Origin: Actinomycetes bacterium
GTDB lineage: Bacteria > Actinomycetota > Thermoleophilia > BMS3ABIN01
Assembly (NCBI GenBank): GCA_021791195.1
Contig: JAJYXB010000016.1
Span: forward strand, 18,223-82,222
Length of the DNA: 64,000 bases
Reading direction: 5' to 3'
A program made the position numbers and the translations under genes. Position 1 is the stretch's first letter. Every line of letters starts with the position of its first letter. This document shows positions 2,938 to 60,460 of this stretch, piece after piece. The notes beneath the pieces were generated by a model. It was given only the letters and a program-made list of their open reading frames with translations. It did not search any database and was not told the origin of the DNA.

Positions 2938-3586
2938 TCTGCTGCGGCTCTATGGCGATGCACCGCCGGCAACGCGGCTGTTCATGCGCATCCGCCTGCT
3001 TCTGAGCGATATGGAGCGGGTCGAGCGCGAAACACCGCGAACCGGCACCATCCTCGAGTTGGGGTGCGGCCACGGGCTGTTCTCAAACCTGCTGGCGCTG
3101 CGTTCGCCGGGGCGCAGGGTGATCGGCATCGACCTCTCGCCGGAAAAGATCCGGCATGCCCGCGCCTCCATCGGCGGCCGCGGCAACATCGAATTCATCT
3201 GCGGCGACATACTCGAGCTCCAGCTGCCTGCATGCGACGCCATCACCATCGTCGATGTCACTTACCTGCTCCCACCCGGCGAGCAGCAGCGGCTGCTGCA
3301 AGAGTGCCGCCGGCTGCTTAGGCCCGGCGGCGTGCTGGTGTGGAAGGCGCAGGAACGCCGGCCACGGTGGAAGTTCGCATTCACCTGGCTGCAGGAGATG
3401 CTGGCTACGTCCGCAGGTCTGACGCAGGGAAAGCGGCGGGGCCTGCACTTCCCCAGCCGCGCGGAAGCGCTGGCGATGATGGAGGCCACCGGTTTCGGCG
3501 CCCGAGTCGTTGAGGTGCCGACGCACCGGCCATACACGGACGTCATCTACGTGGGCACGAAGCCGGGTAATCAGGGAATACCCTGA
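2921..3586 (+). CDS. Class I SAM-dependent methyltransferase
   Basis: TTG start; motif I ILELGCGHGLFSNLLA, then GIDLSPEKIRHA. Confidence 0.8.
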   Translation: MKAPADLLRLYGDAPPATRLFMRIRLLLSDMERVERETPRTGTILELGCGHGLFSNLLALRSPGRRVIGIDLSPEKIRHARASIGGRGNIEFICGDILELQLPACDAITIVDVTYLLPPGEQQRLLQECRRLLRPGGVLVWKAQERRPRWKFAFTWLQEMLATSAGLTQGKRRGLHFPSRAEALAMMEATGFGARVVEVPTHRPYTDVIYVGTKPGNQGIP

Positions 3587-19873: not shown

Positions 19874-19969
19874 TGGCGGGAAGGCGTAGGAATCGAACCT
19901 ACCAACGACGGGGTTACCGCCGCCTACCGGTTTTGAAGACCGGGTGGGCCACCAGACCCGTGCCCTCCC
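19874..19969 (-). tRNA. selC: tRNA-Sec (anticodon TCA)
   Basis: 96-nt tRNA read on the minus strand: 8-bp acceptor GGGAGGGC/GCCTTCCC, anticodon stem-loop CCGGT-CTTCAAA-ACCGG, long variable arm, GGTTCGATTCC T-arm, encoded CCA. Confidence 0.93.
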
Positions 19970-20574: not shown

Positions 20575-23500
20575 GTGAAGGTCATACAGCATGAAATAAA
20601 GCGTGCGGTAAAACCCCCTCTAGGTTTCATTGCCCTCGGACTTGCTCTTGTTTTTCTGATCCTCTCTCACGGCAGCTCCGCCTTTGCGGCCACGACCATC
20701 GGTACTACGGGCGGCGGCTGTTCCACAATCGGCACGTGGAATCAGGCCACTTTGACCTGTACGCTGACTGGTGATGTTATCATCGCCAGCGGCAACGGCA
20801 TCAACATCAACGGCTCGGGGATCACGCTCGATGGCGCCGGGCACACGATTACCGGCAGCATGGCTTACACCACCGGAATCGCCATCAGTTCTTCGAACGT
20901 CACGTTAAAGAATCTGACTATCAACAATTTTATGTACGGCGCTTATGTGATGGCTGCCAGCGGCGCCGTCATCACCGGCGACACATTCTCCGGAAACGGC
21001 TATGGCGTTTACCTCTCGGTCGCAAACAGCGCCCGGGTGTACAACAATAATCTTCTGGGCAACACCACGCAGTTATATCAGTCCGGCGGCGCCGGCGATC
21101 TTTTCAGCCAGCCAGCTCCGTCGGGCGGCAACTTCTACAGCAATTACAACACCGCGGCGCAGGGATGCGTCGACGGCAACGGCGACGGCTATTGCGATGC
21201 CGCCTACAGCTTCACCGGCGGTTCGGATGCGCTGCCATGGACCACGCAGACCGGCTGGCAGGATACGACGCCGCCGGCGATAAGCAGCGTTCTCCCCACA
21301 GGCAACATCAACACCGGTTCGGCCACCATCAGCGTCAGCTATGCCGACGCGGGTTCGGGCGTCAACACATCCGCGGTCAGCGTTACACTTGACGGTTCGG
21401 CGCTCACAGGGTGCAATATCACTGCCGCCGGCGCCAGCTGCCCCGTTAGCGGGCTCGCCCTGGGGGCGCACACCATCGGCGGTTCGGTGGCGGACAAGAA
21501 GGGCAACACCAGCAGCATCAGCGGCAGTTTCAGTGTCGTGGACAATACGCCGCCGGCCATCACCAGCATCGCACCGACAGGCGCCATCAGCACAACTTCA
21601 CCGACCATCACGGCCAGCCTGGCGGACGACCTGACCGGCGTGAACACAGCGTCGGTTTCCGTTTCACTCGACGGCACCGCGGTGCCGGGTTGCACCGTGA
21701 CGGCGTCGAGCGTCAGCTGCGGCACGAGCGGCCTGGCAGCCGGAGCCCACAACGTTACGATCAGCGCCGCGGACGTTGCCGGCAACACCGGCAGCGCTTC
21801 CGCTTCATTTAATATAGACACGACCGCGCCGGTGGTCAGCAACGTGCAACCGTCCGGAACCATCAATGCCGCTACCGCCACCGTCAGCGCCTCTTATGTT
21901 GATTCAGGCGCCGGCATCAACGCCGGCAGTGTCAGCGTCAGCCTGGACGGATCTTCGCTGGTCTGCAGCGTGACAGCATCCGGCGTTTCATGTCCGGTCA
22001 GCGGCCTGGCTGTCGGCGCACACACTATTAGTGGATCGGTGGCCGACAGCGCCGGCAACGTCAGCGCCATCAGCGGCAGCTTCACTGTCGCGGACGCCGC
22101 GCCGCCCGCCGTGGTCTATAACGGACCGAGCGGCTGGGTCAATAGCGCCAGCCCGACAATCACCGCCAGCTATACGGACGCCGCGCCTTCCAGCGGCGTG
22201 AACACCGCCAGCGCCAGCCTGAGCCTGAACGGCTCGGCGGCGATTGCATGCACGGCCCTGGCGGGCTCGATCAGCTGCCCGACCAGCGGACTGGCGGATG
22301 GTCACTACTCGGCCACCGTCACCATTAATGACAACAGCGGCAACGCCGGTTCATCCACCGGGTCGTTCGACATCGATACGGTCAGCCCGGCGGTGACAGG
22401 TCTGGCGCCCAGCGGCACTCTCGGGGTGATGTCCGCCACGATCAGCGCCAGCTACAGTGACGCCGCCAGCGGCATCAATGCCTCTTCGGCGTCGGTGACG
22501 ATGGACGGGAACCCAGTTTCGGGATGCAGCGTCTCCGCCACCGGCGTCAGCTGCAATGTCGCCGGCCTGACCAACGGAACGCACAACTATACCGCCAGCG
22601 TCAATGACCTGGCCGGCAACACCGGCACGGCCAGCGGCTCTTTCACGGTCGCCCTGGCCGATACCACGCCGCCAGTGGTAACCAGCGTCCAGCCATCCGG
22701 CACTATATATACGTCCGCTCCGACCATCAGCGCGAGCTATTCCGACACCGGCTCCGGCGTCAACACCGGCTCCGGCGTCAACACCGGCTCCGGCGTCAAC
22801 ACCGGCTCCGTGTCGGTGACGCTCAACGGCACGGCGCTGACCGGCTGTCAGGTGAGCACCACTGGCGTCAATTGCAACGTTTCCGGCCTGGCGGACGGGA
22901 CGTACAATGTGGTTGTCAGTGTGATGGACAACTCCAATAACACTGGCACGGCATCGTCGACCTTCACGGTGACGACCGTCCAGACCATCGGCACGAAGAA
23001 CATCACCAACAATGCCACCGGCGGCGACTGCGCATCTTTCGCCAGCTGGGACAATACCGCCAGGAAATGTACCCTCAACACGGACCTGGTGGTACAGAGC
23101 GGCAAGAATGGCATCAACATCGCCAGCGACGGCATCACCCTCGACGGCAACGGCCATACGATCACCGGCGGCATGGGATACACGACCGGTGTTTCCATCA
23201 TGCTTCATAGCAACGCCACTGTCGAGAACCTCAACATCAGTTCTTTCGAATATGGTATCTACACGATGTCGTCCTCGGGGGCGACGCTTGTGAAGGATAC
23301 GCTGAGCGGCAACCAGTACGGCATCTATCTGAGTGGCGGCAGCTCCAACAAGGTTTATAACAACAATTATCTGGGCAGCACGGTGGCGCAGCTTACCGCC
23401 TCCGGGAGCACCGGGAACATCTATTATCAGCCGGCTCCGGCAGGCGGCAGTTACTGGAGCAACTATTCGACGGTGGCACAGGGCTGCGTCGATGCCAATG

Positions 23501-26500
23501 GCGACAGCTTCTGCGATGCGGCCTATAACTTCAGTGGCGGCACCGATCCGCTGCCGTGGACGGTGCAGCTCAGCAGCAACGACACGACGCCGCCGATGGT
23601 CACCAATGTACAGCCGAGCGGTACGATCAACACTTCCACTGCCATCATCAGCGCCAGCTACAGCGACGCAGGCAGTGGCATCAAGGCCTCGACGGTCCTG
23701 GTCAGCCTGGATGGTACGACACTGACTTCGTGTACGGTGGCCGCCGACAGCGTCAGCTGCCCGGTTTCGGGTCTGACGCAGGGCACACACACTATCAGCG
23801 GTTCGGTCGCGGACAATTCGGGCAATACCTCGCCGATCGCGGGCAGTTTCGCCGTGGTGGATAACACACCGCCGGCGATCACGAATGTCCTGCCGTCCGG
23901 CGGCATCAACACTTCGTCCACGACCATCAGCGCGAGCGTCACCGATGATATCTCCGGGGTCAACGCTTCCTCAGTGAGCGTGCAGCTTGACGGCACACCG
24001 GTGTCCGGTTGCAGCCTGTCGGGATCCCAGCTCAGTTGCACGGTTTCCGGGCTGGCCCAGGGCAGTCACGCGCTGGTGATTGGCGCCAGCGATTACGCCG
24101 GCAACGCCGGTTCGTCCACGAGTTCGTTCATGGTCGACTCCACGGCGCCGACGGTCTCTGGCGTGCTCCCCGCCGGCACGATCACCACAGTCGCCGCGAC
24201 GATCAGCGCCGACTATTCTGATTCCGGCTCCGGCATCAACGCCACATCGGCAACATTAAAGCTCGACGGGACTACGCTGAATGGCTGCAGCGCCACTACG
24301 ACCGCGATCAGCTGTCCGGTCACCGGATTGGCCGTGGGACAGCATTCGATCAGCGGCACCGTGGCTGACAACGCCGGCAATGTCACTTCGATAAACGGCA
24401 ATTTCCTCGTCAACGATGCCGCCGCCCCGGCGATTACTTACACCGGCCCGAGCGGCTGGATCAATAACGCCAGCCCGGCCCTTACCGCGGCATACAATGA
24501 TGTGGCGCCTTCAAGCGGTGTCAACACGGCCAGCGCAACGCTCAGTCTGAACGGTGGTTCCGCCATGGCATGTACAGCAGTTGCCGGTAACATCAGCTGC
24601 CCCACCAGTCAGCTGGCGGATGGCAACTACAGCGCCGTTATCTCGCTGGCTGACAATGCCGGCAACGTCGGCACCGCCACCGGCACTTTCAGCATCGACA
24701 CCGGGGCGCCGGCGGTCAGCGGCCTGTCGCCCAGCGGCAGCATCACCACGACATACACCACGGTTTCCGCCAACTTTGCCGATGGCGGGTCCGGAGTAAA
24801 CAGCTCGACTGCTCAGGTGACCCTGGACGGCAACGCCGTCAGCGGCTGCACGGTGACGGCTTCGGGCGTCAGCTGCGCAATAACGGGTCTGACCGCAGGC
24901 GTGCATAACATCGTCGCGAGCGTCAATGACAATGCCGGCAATACCGGTACCGCTTCCGGCTCCTTCACTGTGGCGCTGGCCGATACCACGCCGCCCGTGA
25001 TTTCGAACCTGCAGCCGAGTGGCACGATTTATACGAATTCCACAACCGTCAGCGCCGACTTTACGGATAATTCCGGAGTCGACACTTCCTCTGTGGCCGT
25101 GACCCTTAACGGCAGCCCGGTCACAGGTTGCACCGTGACCGCCTCAAGCGTGAGTTGTCCGGTCAGCTCTCTGGCGGATGGCTCCTACAACGTTGCCGTC
25201 AACCTCAAGGACATCTACAACAATGCGGCTTCCGCCACGGGCTCGTTCACCGTGACGACGGTCCAGACCGTGGGCACCAAGTTCATCTACAACAATCTCA
25301 CTGGCGGGGATTGTCCCTCTATCGGCGTGTGGGACAACACGACCAAGACCTGCACGTTGCAGACAGACCTTGTCATCCTGCCGGGCAAGAACGGCATTGA
25401 AGTCTCGGGAGACGGCGTCACGCTTGACGGCGCCGGTCACACGATTACCGGCAGCCTTGGATACACGACCGGCATCGATGTCGTGATGCACAAGAATGAC
25501 ACCGTCAAGAACATCACCGTTAGTTCGTTCCAGTACGGGTTCAACCTGATGTCCTCAAACGGGATAATCATCACGGGCAATACGCTTAACGGGAACACCA
25601 CCGGCGTCAACCTTTCAGGCGGCACCGGTGATCAGATATACGAGAACAACTTCCTCAACAACATCACTCAGGCGACCGCATCGGGTACTGGAAACGTCTT
25701 CAACCTTCCGGCGCCGGCCGGCGGCAACTACTGGAGTAATTTCAACACCGCGGCGCAGGGTTGCGTTGACAATAATGCCGACGGCTTCTGCGACACGGGT
25801 TACACATTCACCGGCGGCGTTGACAATATGCCGCGTACCGGTGCCTATGTGGGCAGCGGCTCCGCGCCTGACACGACCGCGCCGACGGTGACCAACATCC
25901 AGCCGGCCGGCACGGTCGGCACTTCCAGCGTCACCATCAGCGCGGATTATGCGGACAACGTCGGCGGCTCCGGGATCAAGGCCGCGTCGGCAGTCGTTTA
26001 TCTCGATGGCAGCATCCTTAGCGGGTGCACCGCCACCACAAGCAACGTGAGCTGTCCCGTCACGGGATTAGCAGGAACCAGCCATACAATCAACGTGTAT
26101 GTTTCCGATAATACCGGCAACGTGGGCACCGGCAGCGCGTCCTTCACCGTCACGCTCGATACGGTTCCGCCGGTCGTCAGCAACATCACGCCTGCCGGCT
26201 GGATCGCGTCAGCGAGCCCGGTCGTCAACGCCAACTTCGCTGACAGTGGCTCCGGCGTCAATGCTGCCTCGTCTGTCGTGTATCTCGACGGCATGACGGT
26301 GTCCGGATGCACGGCTACCGTAACCGGTGTCAGCTGCCCGGTCACGGCCCTTGCTGATGGCAGCCATACGTTAACGGTCTCTGTCGCCGACAACGCCGGC
26401 AATACCGGCTCCGGCACTGGCTCCTTCTCGGTGGACACCACGGCGCCGGCTGTGACAAACATCCAGCCTAGCGGTGCGATCAGCACTAACTCGGCTACTA

Positions 26501-28770
26501 TAAGTGCGTATCTGAATGACGCCGGCTCAGGCCTGAACGCCTCTACTGTCACGGTCCAGATGGACAGTGCCACTCTTGCCGGTTGTACGGTAAACGCGGG
26601 CACGGTCAGCTGTCCGGTCACCGGACTGGCCAATGGTTCACATGCCATCGCAATAAGTGCAGACGACAATGCCGGCAATCACGGCAGCGCTAGCGCTTCC
26701 TTCATGGTAGCGGTCGACTCGACGCCGCCGGTGATCAGCGGGCTGGCTCCAACCGGCTGGATCAATACGGCCAGCACGACCATTACGGGCAGCTACTCCG
26801 ATTCTGGCTCGGGCATAGACGCAGCCAGTGCGTCGGTCTATCTTGATAGCGGTACGCTGTCCGGCTGCACCGCGACGGCCAGCAGCATCAGCTGTCCTGC
26901 CAGCGGCCTGGCAAACGGACTGCATAACTATACGGTCAGCGTCAGGGACTTGGCTGGCAATCTTGCTACCTCCACCGGGTCATTCTCGGTTGATTTGACT
27001 GCACCGACCCTGATCAATCTCTCGCCGAGCGGCGCGATCAACGCCACCGCGGCAACGATCAGCGCCACATATTCCGATGGCTCCGGCTCCGGCATCGATA
27101 CCGCCTCGGTCAGGGTCTATCTCGATGGCAATGTCGAAAACAACTGCACCGCTGGCCAGTCAACTGTCAGCTGCCCGACTACCGGCCTGGCCCAGGGAGC
27201 TCACACCTTTAGTGTGAGCGTCAAGGACCTGGCCGGCAACACCGGCGCGGCCTCGGGTTCCTTTACGGTGGACAGCGTTGCGCCGGCGGTAAGCGGCATC
27301 GCGCCCACCGGCACGCTAAGCAGCGCCTCCGTGACGGTCTACGCCAACTACACCGATAGCGGCTCCGGCATCAACTCCGCTTCTGCGGCAGTGACTCTGG
27401 ACGGCGCGGCCCTAAGCGGCTGCACCGCCACGGCCACATCCATCAGCTGCCCGGTCACGGGCCTGGCCGACGGCTCCCACACCATCACGGTGAGCGTCGC
27501 CGACAACGCCGGCAACACCGGCACCGGCACCGGGTCCTTTACGGTCAGCTCCGACACCACGCCGCCGGCGTTGAGCAATCTGGCGCCCAGCGGCCTGATC
27601 AGCACAACCAGCACGACCATCACCGCCGACTACGCTGACTCCGGCTCCGGCATCAACTCAGCCACCGCCCAGGTCTACCTAGACAGCGGTGCCGTAAGCG
27701 GCTGCACCGCCACGGTCACATCCATCAGCTGCCCGGTCGCGGGCCTGGCTCAGGGCGCCCATAACTACACCGTCAGCGTCGCCGACAACGCCGGCAACAC
27801 CGGCGCGGCCTCGGGTTCCTTTACGGTGGACAGCGTTGCGCCGGCGGTAAGCGGCATCGCGCCCACCGGCACGCTAAGCAGCGCCTCCGTGACGGTCTAC
27901 GCCAACTACACCGATAGCGGCTCCGGCATCAACTCCGCTTCTGCGGCAGTGACTCTGGACGGCGCGGCCCTAAGCGGCTGCACCGCCACGGCCACATCCA
28001 TCAGCTGCCCGGTCACGGGCCTGGCCGACGGCTCCCACACCATCACGGTGAGCGTCGCCGACAACGCCGGCAACACCGGCACCGGCACCGGGTCCTTTAC
28101 GGTGGTGAGTGCGGATACGACGCCACCTTCGATTACCTCGATCGAGCCCACGGGCACGATCACGACTGACTCGGCGACGGTGCAGGTCTACTACGCCGAG
28201 ACCGGTTCGGGAATCAACAGCGCGGCTTCGTATGTCTATCTCGACAGTGTGCCCATGACTGGCTGCACATACACGTCAACTGTGGTCAATTGCCCGATCA
28301 CCGGCCTGCTGCAGGGCTCGCACACGATCACCGGCAGGATCTACGACAACGCTGGCAACTACGCGGACATCGCCAGCACCAGCTTCACGGTGAACGTTAG
28401 CAACAAGCCGGACCTGGTTCTGCAGGTCAACGGCACTGCACAGCTTTCCGGCACGCAGCTGCAGATCCCGATGCGGGTTCACAACGCTGGCAGCAAGACG
28501 GCTTATACCGTCAGACTGACCGCTGATACCAATAGCGACGGAGTTACATACACTAAACCCGGCCTGCCGTACAGCGTAGCTTCCAAGATAAGCTCTGGCA
28601 GCAACAGCAACACCTTCACGCTGACATACGACGTGCCGGCTGGCATCACCAGCTTCTTTACATACTGTACTGGCACGGCATCGAATTCGTCGGAAGGTGG
28701 TGGCACTACATTCAACTACAGCTACTGGTTGCAGATCAGCGGCTATGGTTCCGGAGGCGGCGATAACTGA
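20575..28770 (+). CDS. Giant secreted surface protein: three right-handed beta-helix (NosD-like) modules plus many Cys-containing Ig-like repeats
   Basis: GTG start, signal peptide (FIALGLALVFLILSHGSSAFA); recurring TPPAxTNxxPSGxIxTxSxTISAxYxDxGSGI...GCTxxxxxxSCPVxGLxxGxHxxxxSVxDNAGNxGxxxGSFTV; recurring DGxGHTITGxxxYTTG...QGCVDxNxDxxCDxxY. Confidence 0.85.
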   Translation: MKVIQHEIKRAVKPPLGFIALGLALVFLILSHGSSAFAATTIGTTGGGCSTIGTWNQATLTCTLTGDVIIASGNGININGSGITLDGAGHTITGSMAYTTGIAISSSNVTLKNLTINNFMYGAYVMAASGAVITGDTFSGNGYGVYLSVANSARVYNNNLLGNTTQLYQSGGAGDLFSQPAPSGGNFYSNYNTAAQGCVDGNGDGYCDAAYSFTGGSDALPWTTQTGWQDTTPPAISSVLPTGNINTGSATISVSYADAGSGVNTSAVSVTLDGSALTGCNITAAGASCPVSGLALGAHTIGGSVADKKGNTSSISGSFSVVDNTPPAITSIAPTGAISTTSPTITASLADDLTGVNTASVSVSLDGTAVPGCTVTASSVSCGTSGLAAGAHNVTISAADVAGNTGSASASFNIDTTAPVVSNVQPSGTINAATATVSASYVDSGAGINAGSVSVSLDGSSLVCSVTASGVSCPVSGLAVGAHTISGSVADSAGNVSAISGSFTVADAAPPAVVYNGPSGWVNSASPTITASYTDAAPSSGVNTASASLSLNGSAAIACTALAGSISCPTSGLADGHYSATVTINDNSGNAGSSTGSFDIDTVSPAVTGLAPSGTLGVMSATISASYSDAASGINASSASVTMDGNPVSGCSVSATGVSCNVAGLTNGTHNYTASVNDLAGNTGTASGSFTVALADTTPPVVTSVQPSGTIYTSAPTISASYSDTGSGVNTGSGVNTGSGVNTGSVSVTLNGTALTGCQVSTTGVNCNVSGLADGTYNVVVSVMDNSNNTGTASSTFTVTTVQTIGTKNITNNATGGDCASFASWDNTARKCTLNTDLVVQSGKNGINIASDGITLDGNGHTITGGMGYTTGVSIMLHSNATVENLNISSFEYGIYTMSSSGATLVKDTLSGNQYGIYLSGGSSNKVYNNNYLGSTVAQLTASGSTGNIYYQPAPAGGSYWSNYSTVAQGCVDANGDSFCDAAYNFSGGTDPLPWTVQLSSNDTTPPMVTNVQPSGTINTSTAIISASYSDAGSGIKASTVLVSLDGTTLTSCTVAADSVSCPVSGLTQGTHTISGSVADNSGNTSPIAGSFAVVDNTPPAITNVLPSGGINTSSTTISASVTDDISGVNASSVSVQLDGTPVSGCSLSGSQLSCTVSGLAQGSHALVIGASDYAGNAGSSTSSFMVDSTAPTVSGVLPAGTITTVAATISADYSDSGSGINATSATLKLDGTTLNGCSATTTAISCPVTGLAVGQHSISGTVADNAGNVTSINGNFLVNDAAAPAITYTGPSGWINNASPALTAAYNDVAPSSGVNTASATLSLNGGSAMACTAVAGNISCPTSQLADGNYSAVISLADNAGNVGTATGTFSIDTGAPAVSGLSPSGSITTTYTTVSANFADGGSGVNSSTAQVTLDGNAVSGCTVTASGVSCAITGLTAGVHNIVASVNDNAGNTGTASGSFTVALADTTPPVISNLQPSGTIYTNSTTVSADFTDNSGVDTSSVAVTLNGSPVTGCTVTASSVSCPVSSLADGSYNVAVNLKDIYNNAASATGSFTVTTVQTVGTKFIYNNLTGGDCPSIGVWDNTTKTCTLQTDLVILPGKNGIEVSGDGVTLDGAGHTITGSLGYTTGIDVVMHKNDTVKNITVSSFQYGFNLMSSNGIIITGNTLNGNTTGVNLSGGTGDQIYENNFLNNITQATASGTGNVFNLPAPAGGNYWSNFNTAAQGCVDNNADGFCDTGYTFTGGVDNMPRTGAYVGSGSAPDTTAPTVTNIQPAGTVGTSSVTISADYADNVGGSGIKAASAVVYLDGSILSGCTATTSNVSCPVTGLAGTSHTINVYVSDNTGNVGTGSASFTVTLDTVPPVVSNITPAGWIASASPVVNANFADSGSGVNAASSVVYLDGMTVSGCTATVTGVSCPVTALADGSHTLTVSVADNAGNTGSGTGSFSVDTTAPAVTNIQPSGAISTNSATISAYLNDAGSGLNASTVTVQMDSATLAGCTVNAGTVSCPVTGLANGSHAIAISADDNAGNHGSASASFMVAVDSTPPVISGLAPTGWINTASTTITGSYSDSGSGIDAASASVYLDSGTLSGCTATASSISCPASGLANGLHNYTVSVRDLAGNLATSTGSFSVDLTAPTLINLSPSGAINATAATISATYSDGSGSGIDTASVRVYLDGNVENNCTAGQSTVSCPTTGLAQGAHTFSVSVKDLAGNTGAASGSFTVDSVAPAVSGIAPTGTLSSASVTVYANYTDSGSGINSASAAVTLDGAALSGCTATATSISCPVTGLADGSHTITVSVADNAGNTGTGTGSFTVSSDTTPPALSNLAPSGLISTTSTTITADYADSGSGINSATAQVYLDSGAVSGCTATVTSISCPVAGLAQGAHNYTVSVADNAGNTGAASGSFTVDSVAPAVSGIAPTGTLSSASVTVYANYTDSGSGINSASAAVTLDGAALSGCTATATSISCPVTGLADGSHTITVSVADNAGNTGTGTGSFTVVSADTTPPSITSIEPTGTITTDSATVQVYYAETGSGINSAASYVYLDSVPMTGCTYTSTVVNCPITGLLQGSHTITGRIYDNAGNYADIASTSFTVNVSNKPDLVLQVNGTAQLSGTQLQIPMRVHNAGSKTAYTVRLTADTNSDGVTYTKPGLPYSVASKISSGSNSNTFTLTYDVPAGITSFFTYCTGTASNSSEGGGTTFNYSYWLQISGYGSGGGDN
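22747..22809 (+). repeat. 18-bp perfect tandem repeat, 3.5 units, inside the giant ORF
   Basis: (ACCGGCTCCGGCGTCAAC)x3 + ACCGGCTCC, encoding repeated GSGVNT. Confidence 0.9.
27232..27545 (+). repeat. Copy 1 of an identical ~314-bp direct repeat inside the giant ORF
   Basis: Sequence from GCCGGCAACACCGGCGCGGCC to GGGTCCTTTACGGT recurs at +558 bp with no difference that I could see. Confidence 0.88.
27790..28103 (+). repeat. Copy 2 of the identical ~314-bp direct repeat
   Basis: See 27232-27545; the two identical antisense ORF tails at 27348.. and 27906.. in the supplied track confirm identity. Confidence 0.88.
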
Positions 28771-32728: not shown

Positions 32729-35269
32729 TTGAGACAACCCGGGAAGACGCGTAACTCCATCCGGTCCGGCGAGCTTACCCGGGTCGACCTTCATTTACAT
32801 TCCCGTTTTTCCACGGAATCTGACCTGTGGATCCTCCGGCAGGCCGGCATTGGGGAAAGCAACACCGACCCCGAAACCGTTTACAAGGTCTGCAAGGAAC
32901 GGGGGATGACCTATGTCACCCTCACCGATCACAACACCATCGAGGGCGGCCTGCGCCTGCAGGAACACGAGGATTTCTTCCTCAGCGAGGAAGTCACCAC
33001 TTATTTCCCCGGCGAGGATGTCAAGCTGCACCTGCTGGCGTTAGGCATCGACGAAAAGCAGCATGGGGAGATCCAGGAGCTGCGCCGCAATCTCTACGAG
33101 CTGGTGCGGTACCTGAACCAGGAGGGCATCCTTTACGTTCTCTCGCATCCGCTGACGCGGCTGGGGGGCGAGCTTACCCCCGGTCATATCGAGCGGCTGA
33201 TGCTGCTGTTCCCCATCTGGGAGGTGCACAACGGCTCCACCCTCGAGCGCGAGAATTCGATGTCCAGGCGGCTGGCGGAGCGCTGCTCGCGTGAGCTCAT
33301 CCAACAGCTGGCGGAAAAGCACAACCTCGAGCCGGTCACCCGCGAGCGCATCTCTTTCACGGCGGGCTCCGACGACCACGGCGGCTTCGATCTGGCCAGC
33401 GCCTGGACGGTAGCCGCGCCGACGCGCGGTATCGCTGAGTTCCTGGAGGAAGTGCGCTCCGGCCGCACCGAGATCGACGGCTCCCATGGCAGCACGCTGA
33501 AGCTGGCCCACACCATGTTCGGCCTGCTGGCTCATGGTGTCGAGAGCTTTGAGCACAAGGAGAAAGCGAGCGGTTTCGGCGGTCTGGCCGACTGGGCGTC
33601 GCTTGGCTTCAGGGGGGCCTCCGGCGGCGCCCGCAAATGGATGCATCTGGCGTCGCTGGCGCTTGGTGGCGGCGCCCGCACCGGCGGCATCAGAACGGTG
33701 ATGGGGGATGCGCGGCTGCGGAAAGCGCTGCTGCCGCTAATGGCGGCGTCGGCGAAGCCCGGCAAATGTGGCGGCGACCGGTATCACGATCAGGTCTTCT
33801 CGCTGGTGAACGCGGCCTGGGCGTCCGGCATGGGTTCGACTATCTCCGACCTTTCGGAAATAACATTTTTCAACGCGATTGACAACCTTGACAAGATCGG
33901 CCGGCTGGTGGCGCTGCAGACGCTGCTGCTGCCGCACTCGCTGTCGGCCAATTATCACAGCCGTCAGCGGCACTTTCTTACCCGGCTGGACAAGGAGATT
34001 TTCAACGGGCGGTCCGGCAACCACAAGGCCCGGCAGCCCCGGATCGGCCTGTTTACCGACACTTATGACGAGGTCAATGGCGTCACCAGCATCCTCCGGC
34101 GCCTGGCGGAATACTGCCAGAAAGAGGAACGGCCGCTGGACATCATCTGCGCCGGCGACCAGCAGTCGGAAGGACGCGTAGTCAGATTCCCCGCCGTGGC
34201 TGCCACCAACCTGCCGGAGTACGGCCAGCTGGACCTGAGCATCCCGCCGGTGCTTGAGGTCGTCAAACACTGCGAGGAGCAGGAGTTTGACCTGATCCAT
34301 GCGGCCACTCCCGGACCGATGGGGCTGACCGCTTTTCTCGCCTCACGCATCCTGCAGCTGCCTTTCGTGACCAGCTATCACACCGACGTCCCCCGCTGCG
34401 TCGGCCGCATCACCGACGACAAGCTCAACGAGGAAGTCGCCTGGACGTATACGCGCTGGTTCTACCGCCGCAGCGATCTCACTTTCGCGCCCTCTGTTTA
34501 CACCAGCCGCGATCTCGCCGGTCACGGTCTTGACCGGCACAAGATGGCGGTGCTCTATCAGGGCATCGACGCGGATCGGTTCTCGCCGGAGATGCGTTCG
34601 CGCCGGTGGCGCGAGCGGCTGGGCGGGGGCGATGGCAAGAAGGTCCTGCTGTTCGTGGGCCGGCTTTCGCGTGAAAAAGACCTGCGCTTCCTGGCAGAGT
34701 GTTACCTGGACATCAGATCGCGCCGTGATGACGTCCATCTGGCAATCGTCGGCGACGGCCCCGAGCGGCGGGAGCTGGAAGATCTGCTTGGCGACCGCGC
34801 CACGTTTACCGGCTGGCTGGAAGGAGAAGAACTGGCGGCGGCCTTTGCATCAGCCGATTTGTTCGTCTTCCCCAGCAGTGTCGACACCGCTGGCCAGGTG
34901 ATCCTGGAGGCCCAGGCTTCCGGGCTGCCGGTAGTGCTCTGCGATGAGGGAGGCGCCTGCGAGAATATCGTTCCCGGCCGCAGCGGCCTGACGGCTTCCA
35001 GCCGCAGTCTGAGCAGCTTTACGCATGGGATCGAGCAGCTGCTGGATTCCGGGGACACCATGGCGGCGATGTCGGCGGAAGCCCGGCGGATGGCCGAGGC
35101 GCGCTCATGGGAAAAGGTCTTCGCCGACATGTTCGACACCTACGCCGAACTCGTCAACTGGTGGCAGCCGCTATCTGCCGTTCGTACCGAAGGCGAAGCC
35201 GGCGCCGGCCGCGATGATGCCTCGCGCGATTTCTTCCTCAGCCTCGGGCGCACAGCCGGCATCCGCTGA
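32729..35269 (+). CDS. PHP-domain phosphoesterase fused to GT4-family glycosyltransferase
   Basis: N-terminus VDLHLHSRFS, LTDHNT, LSHP, GSDDHGG; C-terminus RIGLFTDTYDEVNGVTSILRRLAEY, SYHTDVPRC, LLFVGRLSREKDL, PSSVDTAGQVILEAQASGLPVV. Confidence 0.85.
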   Translation: MRQPGKTRNSIRSGELTRVDLHLHSRFSTESDLWILRQAGIGESNTDPETVYKVCKERGMTYVTLTDHNTIEGGLRLQEHEDFFLSEEVTTYFPGEDVKLHLLALGIDEKQHGEIQELRRNLYELVRYLNQEGILYVLSHPLTRLGGELTPGHIERLMLLFPIWEVHNGSTLERENSMSRRLAERCSRELIQQLAEKHNLEPVTRERISFTAGSDDHGGFDLASAWTVAAPTRGIAEFLEEVRSGRTEIDGSHGSTLKLAHTMFGLLAHGVESFEHKEKASGFGGLADWASLGFRGASGGARKWMHLASLALGGGARTGGIRTVMGDARLRKALLPLMAASAKPGKCGGDRYHDQVFSLVNAAWASGMGSTISDLSEITFFNAIDNLDKIGRLVALQTLLLPHSLSANYHSRQRHFLTRLDKEIFNGRSGNHKARQPRIGLFTDTYDEVNGVTSILRRLAEYCQKEERPLDIICAGDQQSEGRVVRFPAVAATNLPEYGQLDLSIPPVLEVVKHCEEQEFDLIHAATPGPMGLTAFLASRILQLPFVTSYHTDVPRCVGRITDDKLNEEVAWTYTRWFYRRSDLTFAPSVYTSRDLAGHGLDRHKMAVLYQGIDADRFSPEMRSRRWRERLGGGDGKKVLLFVGRLSREKDLRFLAECYLDIRSRRDDVHLAIVGDGPERRELEDLLGDRATFTGWLEGEELAAAFASADLFVFPSSVDTAGQVILEAQASGLPVVLCDEGGACENIVPGRSGLTASSRSLSSFTHGIEQLLDSGDTMAAMSAEARRMAEARSWEKVFADMFDTYAELVNWWQPLSAVRTEGEAGAGRDDASRDFFLSLGRTAGIR

Positions 35270-35290
35270 CGCCGGAGAAGCGGGGCCTGC

Positions 35291-36046
35291 CTGCCGCATC
35301 TACCGACCACACCCGCGTTCTTCCTGCTGGCCCATCATGACGACGAATTGTTCATCGCCGCGACCATGCGGCGGCTGGCGCGCCGGGGTCCGGTGGCCGT
35401 GCTCTGGCTGAGCCAGGGGGGTCTCGGCGGTCCCCGGCGTCCCGCAGAATCCGTCAGGTCGATGGATATCATCGGTGTGCCGCGGCGCAATCTGTTCTTC
35501 CTGCGGCTGCCGGACAACAGATTGCTTGACTACCTGCCGGAAATTGTTGAGAGGCTCCGCCGCCTGTTCAGCCGCTGGCAGCCGGCGTCGGTTTTTGTGC
35601 CGGCATTCGAGGGGGGACACCAGGACCACGATACCGCGCAGCTGGCGGCGGCGCTGGCGCTGGCGCGTCCGGGGCTGCAGTCGCGCCGGCAGCCGCGGCT
35701 TTACGAGTTTCCGCTCTATCGCCGCCGTGCCGGCCGCCTGCTTGCGGTAGGCAGCCTGCTGGAGGATCCGGCGGCGCCGGTTCAGCAGACTCCGGTCGAA
35801 CTGCGGGACCGGCTGCTGAAGCAGAAACTGGCGCGCGTTTACGCCAGTCAGCGCTTGATAGTCTATCCTTTGCTTGCCATCAAGGGAGGGCCGATGATGC
35901 TGCACCCGCGCGGCGAGCCTTACCGGGAGGTTCCGCCCGGCCGGGATTATACGGCGCCGCCGCATCCGGGCCGCCCGGCTTATGAATACTACACGCGGCG
36001 GCGGTTTGGCCGGTTTGCGGCCAGAGCCAGAGCCGCGAGCTCATAA
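35291..36046 (+). CDS. PIG-L/LmbE-type deacetylase (start codon unresolved; possible CTG at 35291)
   Basis: Frame continuous with the preceding GT4 ORF after a single TGA (35267-35269); FFLLAHHDDELFIAATMRRL metal-binding motif; FEGGHQDHDT. No ATG/GTG/TTG between the TGA and the motif. Confidence 0.75.
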   Translation: MPHLPTTPAFFLLAHHDDELFIAATMRRLARRGPVAVLWLSQGGLGGPRRPAESVRSMDIIGVPRRNLFFLRLPDNRLLDYLPEIVERLRRLFSRWQPASVFVPAFEGGHQDHDTAQLAAALALARPGLQSRRQPRLYEFPLYRRRAGRLLAVGSLLEDPAAPVQQTPVELRDRLLKQKLARVYASQRLIVYPLLAIKGGPMMLHPRGEPYREVPPGRDYTAPPHPGRPAYEYYTRRRFGRFAARARAASS

Positions 36047-58265: not shown

Positions 58266-60278
58266 TCAACGATATTGCGCCGCCAGTCGCGCCGCCGCCC
58301 GCGCGACCGCCGCCCGCGCCGCCACCGGCGACTCCACGACCGCTTCGCCGCCGAAGCGGAGGATTTCGCGCACGAGCCATTTCTGGGAAAAATAAGGAAT
58401 CTCGTCGATCAGACCGCCGTCAGGGCGGACCGCCGCCGCGGGCCTTTTCTCCGCCTCAACCCGGGCTACCGCCGGTGAGAAGTGCACCCGCGCATGGCAG
58501 GGGGCCGCGCTGCCGGAAGGCAGCGCCGGGTTGGCGCGGTAGAACTCCAGATCGATGTCGCGCGGGGTGAACACCTCATCCAGCAGCGCCGCCTCTTTCA
58601 CCATCTGCAACCGGAAGGCCCGCTCGCCTCCGGCGCTGCGGCACCAGGCGATCAGATACCAGTCGCCGGCGGTCCTGGTCAGCAGGTAGGGCTCGATCTG
58701 GCGGCGCCGCGCCTGCTGGCCCTGCTCCGACAGGTATTCGATTTCGAGCAGCCTGTGCTCGTTTAGCCCGCGGGAGATCGCCTCCGCCATGACCGCGTCA
58801 CGGCCCTGAGCTTCCACCACCAGGATGGAGCGCTGCTCGTCCAGGCCGCCGGCGCGCAGGATTTTTTCGCGCGCCGCCCGCAGCGAACGGTGTTCGCCCG
58901 AAATCAGATAGCCGCCCACCAGATCGATCGCCAGCAGGAGCGCGCGCGCCTCCAGCCGCGACAGGCGGGCCGGCCGCTTCAGCAGGTCCCCATAGACGCA
59001 GCGTTCGACACGCAGGCGGTCGCCTTCGATATATCCCTCCACGAGATAGCCGCCGGCGTCCACGCTTACCAGCAGCAGCAGATCCAGATCCCGGCCCAGG
59101 GAGTCCAGGCCGTCGTAGCCAAGATCGGCGCACACCGCCGCGGCCGGCAGGAAAGCAGTCTCCTGGTCTGCCAGCCGGTCGAGCAGATAGGCCACCAGCG
59201 TTGACAGCCGTGCGAAACGCTCCGGTTTCACCTGCCGGGGCGCCGCCGGCGAAACCGCCGCCGCGGCCGGCGCCGGCGCGTCCGTGCCGGCTTCAGGGTA
59301 ATCACCCGTGTGCAGCGACTGCAGCCGCTCGAGGCGTTCGCGCATGCATCGCCTCAATCCGGCCGGCATCTCAATTTCGGCGTCGGCGCCCATGCCCAGC
59401 ACCAGATCGCACAGGCGCCCTCCGTCGGAGTACGCGGTCCTGAAGATCGAGCCGCCGCCGGCCTGCGGTTCGAAATCGCCGGCACGGCCCAGGTTTCTTT
59501 CCACCAGCCAGCTGATCCGCGGCGAGAGCTGGATCGCCGCCGTTCCCTGCTGCCGGCCGAACTGCCATGGCTCCAGGATCTCGTACCGCCGGCGGTCAAA
59601 ATCATCCGGGACGGTGAAATCATGCTCGGCCCGGGTGGCGTTGCGGATCTTTCCCTGGATGCGTCCCAGCTTGAAGACCCGGATGCCGCCGCGTTCGTGC
59701 GCGTGTCCCACGACGTACCAGTCGCCCCGCGTCAGCATCAGGCAGTAGGGGTCGACGCGCCGCTCTTCAGCCGTGTCGCGCGCGAGCGACTGATACTCGA
59801 AACGGATGGTCTTGTTCTGCGAGATAGCCTTCTCGATCTTGGCGAGGCGGTCGGCCGCGGCAGCGTCGAAGCCGGTGGAGAGAAGGTTGATGTTGATGTA
59901 ATCGGCCGCGGGATCCCCGAGAGGATTGCCGCTGCCCAGCGCCAGGTTCTGCAGCGCCAGCCGCAGGACGTCGCTATAGGCGAACTGGCCTTCCAGCAGC
60001 CACAGGCAGGAGCTCAGCGCCGAAAGCTCTTCGCGCGTGAACTCGACTGGAGGCAGGAAATAATTCTCGGGCGGCAGCCAGTAAAGCGTGCTTTCGGGAA
60101 AGCCGCCTGCGTGCGCCTGCGCTTCGCCGGCGTCGCTCAGGATATCGATGCCGAGTCGCGCCAGTTCGTCGCGGTCGGCGTAAAAGCGCCGGTCGAACGC
60201 CTGGTCGCTCATGCCGGCGTACTCCTCCACGTTGCGGCGGATGTCCCAGGTGCCGGCTTTCCTGCCGCCAACCGACAT
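58266..60278 (-). CDS. Double WYL-domain regulator (PafBC-like tandem fusion)
   Basis: Two modules: KTIRFEYQSLARDTAEERRVDPYCLMLTRGDWYVVGH and RLLEIEYLSEQGQQARRRQIEPYLLTRTAGDWYLIAWCR; N-terminal HTH probably extends upstream of the called Met. Confidence 0.85.
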   Translation of the reverse strand: MSVGGRKAGTWDIRRNVEEYAGMSDQAFDRRFYADRDELARLGIDILSDAGEAQAHAGGFPESTLYWLPPENYFLPPVEFTREELSALSSCLWLLEGQFAYSDVLRLALQNLALGSGNPLGDPAADYININLLSTGFDAAAADRLAKIEKAISQNKTIRFEYQSLARDTAEERRVDPYCLMLTRGDWYVVGHAHERGGIRVFKLGRIQGKIRNATRAEHDFTVPDDFDRRRYEILEPWQFGRQQGTAAIQLSPRISWLVERNLGRAGDFEPQAGGGSIFRTAYSDGGRLCDLVLGMGADAEIEMPAGLRRCMRERLERLQSLHTGDYPEAGTDAPAPAAAAVSPAAPRQVKPERFARLSTLVAYLLDRLADQETAFLPAAAVCADLGYDGLDSLGRDLDLLLLVSVDAGGYLVEGYIEGDRLRVERCVYGDLLKRPARLSRLEARALLLAIDLVGGYLISGEHRSLRAAREKILRAGGLDEQRSILVVEAQGRDAVMAEAISRGLNEHRLLEIEYLSEQGQQARRRQIEPYLLTRTAGDWYLIAWCRSAGGERAFRLQMVKEAALLDEVFTPRDIDLEFYRANPALPSGSAAPCHARVHFSPAVARVEAEKRPAAAVRPDGGLIDEIPYFSQKWLVREILRFGGEAVVESPVAARAAVARAAARLAAQYR

Positions 60279-60460
60279 CAGGTAAGCTACCAGCGAGAGC
60301 TGCCTGATAAGTTTGCTTTTATCCGAAGAGATGGCGCCGCCTTCCCACTGCCAGCAGTCCCGTCACCGGGGCGAATTTTTCCGTCCGGACGAACCGATAC
60401 AATTCCATCAGGATTCTAACCGCTCACGGATGATTGGGGAAGATGATGGATGCAGCTGTG

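Follow-up and report, generated by a model that had tools for sequence, protein, structure and literature searches.

Organization of the PHP-GT4 and PIG-L locus

The window, the whole 64,000-nucleotide stretch of DNA analysed here, carries on its plus strand a PHP-GT4 gene (32729..35269) in which a PHP/CehA-like metallohydrolase region is joined to a GT4 glycosyltransferase; the Pfam models Glyco_trans_1_4, Glycos_transf_1 and Glyco_transf_4 match the product, and its N-terminus is weakly CehA/McbA-like. The 846-aa open reading frame ends at a TGA (35267..35269), beyond which the same frame stays open until TAA 36044-36046 and encodes a PIG-L domain, as the initial annotation had described; the domain is a genuine member of the family, matched by PF02585 with an E-value of 2e-15. 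Twenty codons separate the TGA from the metal-binding motif AHHDDE (35330..35347, plus strand), and ATG, GTG and TTG are absent among them. The first canonical codon of the PIG-L frame is TTG 35348, immediately 3′ of the motif, and a product begun there would lack AHHDDE, which bears out a further part of the earlier description. The sole near-cognate codon in the window from the PHP-GT4 stop to the FFLLAHHDDE segment is a CTG (35291..35293, plus strand), the putative start codon of a PIG-L-family deacetylase gene of 251 aa plus stop (35291..36046, plus strand), whose predicted product retains the PF02585 match at 57.8 bits versus a gathering score of 28.2. Positioned 13 nt 5′ of this CTG is GGAG (35274..35277, plus strand), a weak or over-spaced Shine-Dalgarno candidate with a duplex energy of -8.6 kcal/mol, similar to that in relatives with CTG or TTG, which may help re-initiation downstream of the TGA.

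Adjacent GT4 glycosyltransferase and PIG-L deacetylase genes are also characteristic of MshA/MshB and BshA/BshB, and the best NCBIfam resemblances of the pair include MshA, BshA and BshB1; the present pair differs in the fusion of a PHP region to GT4 and in scores that fall far below every cut-off. Identity with MshA or BshA was rejected on the NCBIfam equivalog cut-offs (90.9 versus 462.5 and 81.8 versus 273.7, respectively), as was identity with BshB1 (37.4 versus 182.5) or MshB, for which no model matched. The pair is likely to act on a GlcNAc-containing lipid or small molecule, which the GT4 would glycosylate before de-N-acetylation. Elsewhere in the window, positions 20575-28770 encode a 2731-aa protein that combines NosD-like repeats with numerous Ig-like (Big_13) domains.

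Comparison of the gene pair among relatives

Three explanations had been offered for the absence of a canonical PIG-L start: initiation at the rare codon CTG 35291, read-through or selenocysteine insertion at the TGA, and a mutation or assembly error. The relatives used to weigh them are genomes of one Thermoleophilia family, all draft metagenome assemblies as far as the records show, and PHP-GT4 and PIG-L are adjacent in 14 genomes of this family, the window's own included; in one more, G003, the contig breaks off at the PHP-GT4 ortholog and hides any PIG-L neighbour. A recoded TGA, whether by selenocysteine or read-through, would yield a PHP-GT4-PIG-L fusion, and has in its favour the in-frame open domain and the presence in the window of selA and selB, both above the NCBIfam cut-offs, and of tRNA-Sec (19874-19969), all three of which had been recognized correctly. 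The window's genome moreover encodes what is likely a true selenoprotein (L132:2952-4586, contig C4), in which a thioredoxin-like region with a UQGC motif (TGA 3072-3074) precedes an oxidoreductase resembling, below the cut-off, the NCBIfam model SQR_III_seleno (type III sulfide:quinone reductase selenoprotein). Whereas this TGA and both of its flanks are conserved in G010, the residues right after TGA 35267 (RRRSGAC) are not conserved, and the hairpin once regarded as a weak SECIS candidate folds no more than slightly better than shuffled sequences (z of +1.26 for 35262-35330 and a slightly better -1.1 for 35270-35312). Furthermore, the PHP-GT4 stop among the relatives is TGA, TAA (G011) or TAG (G002 and G009), and PIG-L lies in frame 0, +1 or +2 with respect to GT4. 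All seven genus g6 genomes show an out-of-frame overlap, with GT4 running on for 50 nt past the PIG-L start. Such varied stops, frames and overlaps do not accord with any one recoding mechanism, and we assign recoding a next to negligible probability. The TGA is a genuine PHP-GT4 stop, judging by the differences in stop type and frame relation among the 13 relatives, and it has no connection with the sel genes close by; the comparison lays to rest a selenocysteine reading that is tempting but mistaken.

The same alignment bears on where PIG-L begins. The column 13 codons 5′ of AHHDDE is CTG in eight of the 14 genomes (35291 in the window) and TTG in three; two of the eight have a TTG immediately before the CTG as well, and two of the remaining three genomes have an ATG 2-3 codons earlier than this column. 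An in-frame stop 63 nt before AHHDDE leaves the window with no canonical start, and G018, with its stop at 54 nt, likewise has none. The genus g6 genomes carry GGGAG 4 nt upstream of the CTG or TTG, and the second base of this codon, which is there a third codon position of GT4, is T in 7/7; in the window's genome, only 10-13% of the third positions of the codon boxes concerned are T. Counted by codon position across the genomes, beginning with the fifth codon past the start, differences number 189/92/648, a third-position concentration indicating that the stretch is protein-coding and under selection. Besides AHHDDE, an instance of the (A/P)H.DDE metal motif of PIG-L/LmbE-like deacetylases, the product carries their downstream H.DH motif, as GGHQDHD in the window and GGHxDHD in the relatives.

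Translation from TTG 35348 without AHHDDE, or a pseudogene, would accord with TTG 35348 being the first canonical codon, but AHHDDE and the segment upstream of it are conserved in 14/14 genomes, with 480 synonymous versus 238 non-synonymous codon pairs, and the first metal motif would be lost; we consider this very improbable. Equally improbable is that a sequencing or assembly artefact, or a recent mutation, destroyed the true start or a fusion in the window's genome only. A single draft assembly leaves room for such an event, but other genera also have CTG or TTG at the corresponding column, G018 provides a second case in which CTG is forced, and the N-terminus is under purifying selection. 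The rare-codon explanation, in contrast to the other two, is strongly supported by the comparison with 13 relatives, from which both the existence of two genes and the position and CTG identity of the start column emerge at the sequence level. The PIG-L gene almost certainly begins at CTG 35291, and the overall reading, in which two separate genes are present, PIG-L has its own CTG start, and CTG serves as a start codon in this Thermoleophilia family, is very probably correct.

CTG starts in other genes of the family

CTG is a common leucine codon in this genome (58% of Leu codons and 6% of all codons), so that one CTG at one column in one genome is weak evidence; TTG makes up only 5.7% of Leu codons, and an exchange between CTG and TTG therefore fits a start codon. 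The window's genome was scanned in part, over 442 kb and then 788 kb, for genes with coding signal preceding the first canonical start, and the best cases were followed. In the NAD kinase gene (L181-L199; 19 family genomes), the start column is CTG in 16/19 and TTG in 3/19, and an in-frame stop deprives 13 of the 19 of any canonical start. For the transketolase N-subunit (L200-L215), 15 of 16 genomes have CTG at the start column, mostly with GGAGG or AAGG 9 nt 5′ of it, and ten have no canonical start. Differences by codon position in NAD kinase number 534/695/1733 after the CTG and a flat 1123/1163/1033 before it, and the third-position pattern of the transketolase N-subunit is alike; the coding signal of both genes begins at the conserved CTG. 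In four genomes of the window's genus (G000-G003), a SpeE-like gene carries CTG and lacks any canonical start, whereas it has ATG in G004 and GTG in G005. Outside the family, all 20 readable NAD kinases from 21 genomes of other families of the class have a canonical start available, which marks the NAD kinase CTG as a feature of the window's family.

When 267 ortholog pairs shared by the window's genome and G010 were compared, four genes (PIG-L, SpeE-like, NAD kinase and transketolase N-subunit) used CTG in the window's genome, a rough frequency taken from partial genomes; the same pairs include one apparent ATT start and perhaps one ATC. The former belongs to a HAD hydrolase (L067:13566-14237) with GAGG 5 nt 5′, for which same-genus relatives have GTG, and for which G015 has CTG where G013 has TTG. 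The latter is a two-copy WYL/WCX regulator in the window (58266-60362, minus strand), whose conserved N-terminus precedes the first canonical ATG 60278 and whose start is possibly an ATC near 60332. A genome-wide test over 788 kb found no excess of Shine-Dalgarno sequences before CTG, and hence either few genes use CTG or the many internal CTGs leave the test with too little power.

Proposed mechanism of initiation at CUG

PHP-GT4 ends at TGA 35267, and translation of PIG-L would begin at CTG 35291, with CUG presumably read as fMet. Initiation there is probably aided by the intervening GGAG and by ribosomes that reach the PHP-GT4 stop 21 nt before the CTG. Altered versions of two initiation components were considered and rejected. 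In 14 of 19 genomes the initiator tRNA, called as tRNA-Met, has an anticodon stem of the ordinary initiator type (GGG/CCC); the assembly of the window's genome yielded no such tRNA, probably through incompleteness. IF3 is ordinary by sequence, with nothing obvious distinguishing it from solved IF3s. An ordinary initiator tRNA and IF3 point to CUG being read as a weak near-cognate start, and the simplest mechanism would be that fMet-tRNA pairs with CUG as a near-cognate codon, weakly yet well enough, with assistance from the Shine-Dalgarno sequence, for which the poor example before PIG-L in the window (GGAG at 13 nt) is a weak point. Such a start would hold expression low and be sensitive to IF3.

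The start of infC, encoding IF3, is itself GTC, behind AAGGAGGTG, in 15/15 family genomes examined (L165-L179). Insofar as sigR of Streptomyces also starts with GTC and is repressed by IF3 (PMC5472188), the CTG genes could respond to IF3 as well. It is about an even chance, however, that the CTG starts, although real, are not subject to regulation by IF3 or otherwise, having arisen by TTG to CTG drift tolerated under weak selection, a scenario compatible with two genes and a CTG start for PIG-L. TTG and CTG do swap at the same columns, TTG is common as the first canonical codon (83/304), and IF3 looks ordinary; yet NAD kinase keeps CTG in 16 genomes and the transketolase N-subunit in 15, across several genera, and pure drift would be expected to revert more often to ATG, GTG or TTG, switches to CUG being very rare elsewhere (only four among about 69,000 reconstructed ancestral starts; PMC5622118). 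A more ambitious and rather doubtful extension of the CTG-start reading is an initiation-fidelity regulon, in which the CUG-started genes (NAD kinase, transketolase N-subunit, PIG-L, SpeE-like and others) would be kept by selection as IF3-gated weak starts and, with infC itself starting at GTC, the level of IF3 would be coupled to NADP and pentose metabolism.

Relation to known non-canonical starts

NCBI translation table 11 lists CUG as a possible start; to our knowledge, gene callers generally do not propose CTG starts, and the annotations behind published CUG frequencies seldom take them into account. CUG reportedly accounts for 0.024% of bacterial starts and has 0.86% of the activity of AUG in Escherichia coli (PMC11497404), and in Mycobacterium smegmatis it was not selected as a leadered start (PMC4633059). 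The rare bacterial CUG starts share their codon with the genes described here, which differ in frequency (four in 267 ortholog pairs) and in family-wide fixation in core genes. Like sigR, PIG-L is an actinobacterial gene whose non-canonical start is conserved and which belongs to a pair that is translationally coupled, here presumably, although the codon is CTG rather than GTC, several unrelated enzyme genes are involved, and control by IF3 is here hypothetical. Similarly, infC starts with ATT in E. coli and ATC in Streptomyces and is autoregulated by IF3 (as reviewed in PMC5472188); the family's infC start is also non-canonical, but is GTC, and the CTG genes do not encode translation factors. 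The literature searched yielded no conserved, multi-gene natural case of CUG starts in bacteria.

A CUG fixed family-wide in genes of core metabolism exceeds what earlier reports describe (PMC11497404, PMC4633059, PMC5622118), and its conservation in NAD kinase and transketolase can hardly be put down to noise. For the genomes of this family, CTG starts mean truncated or missing gene calls. Overall, the family provides a natural system for asking how CUG is selected as a start codon, and whether weak starts regulate.
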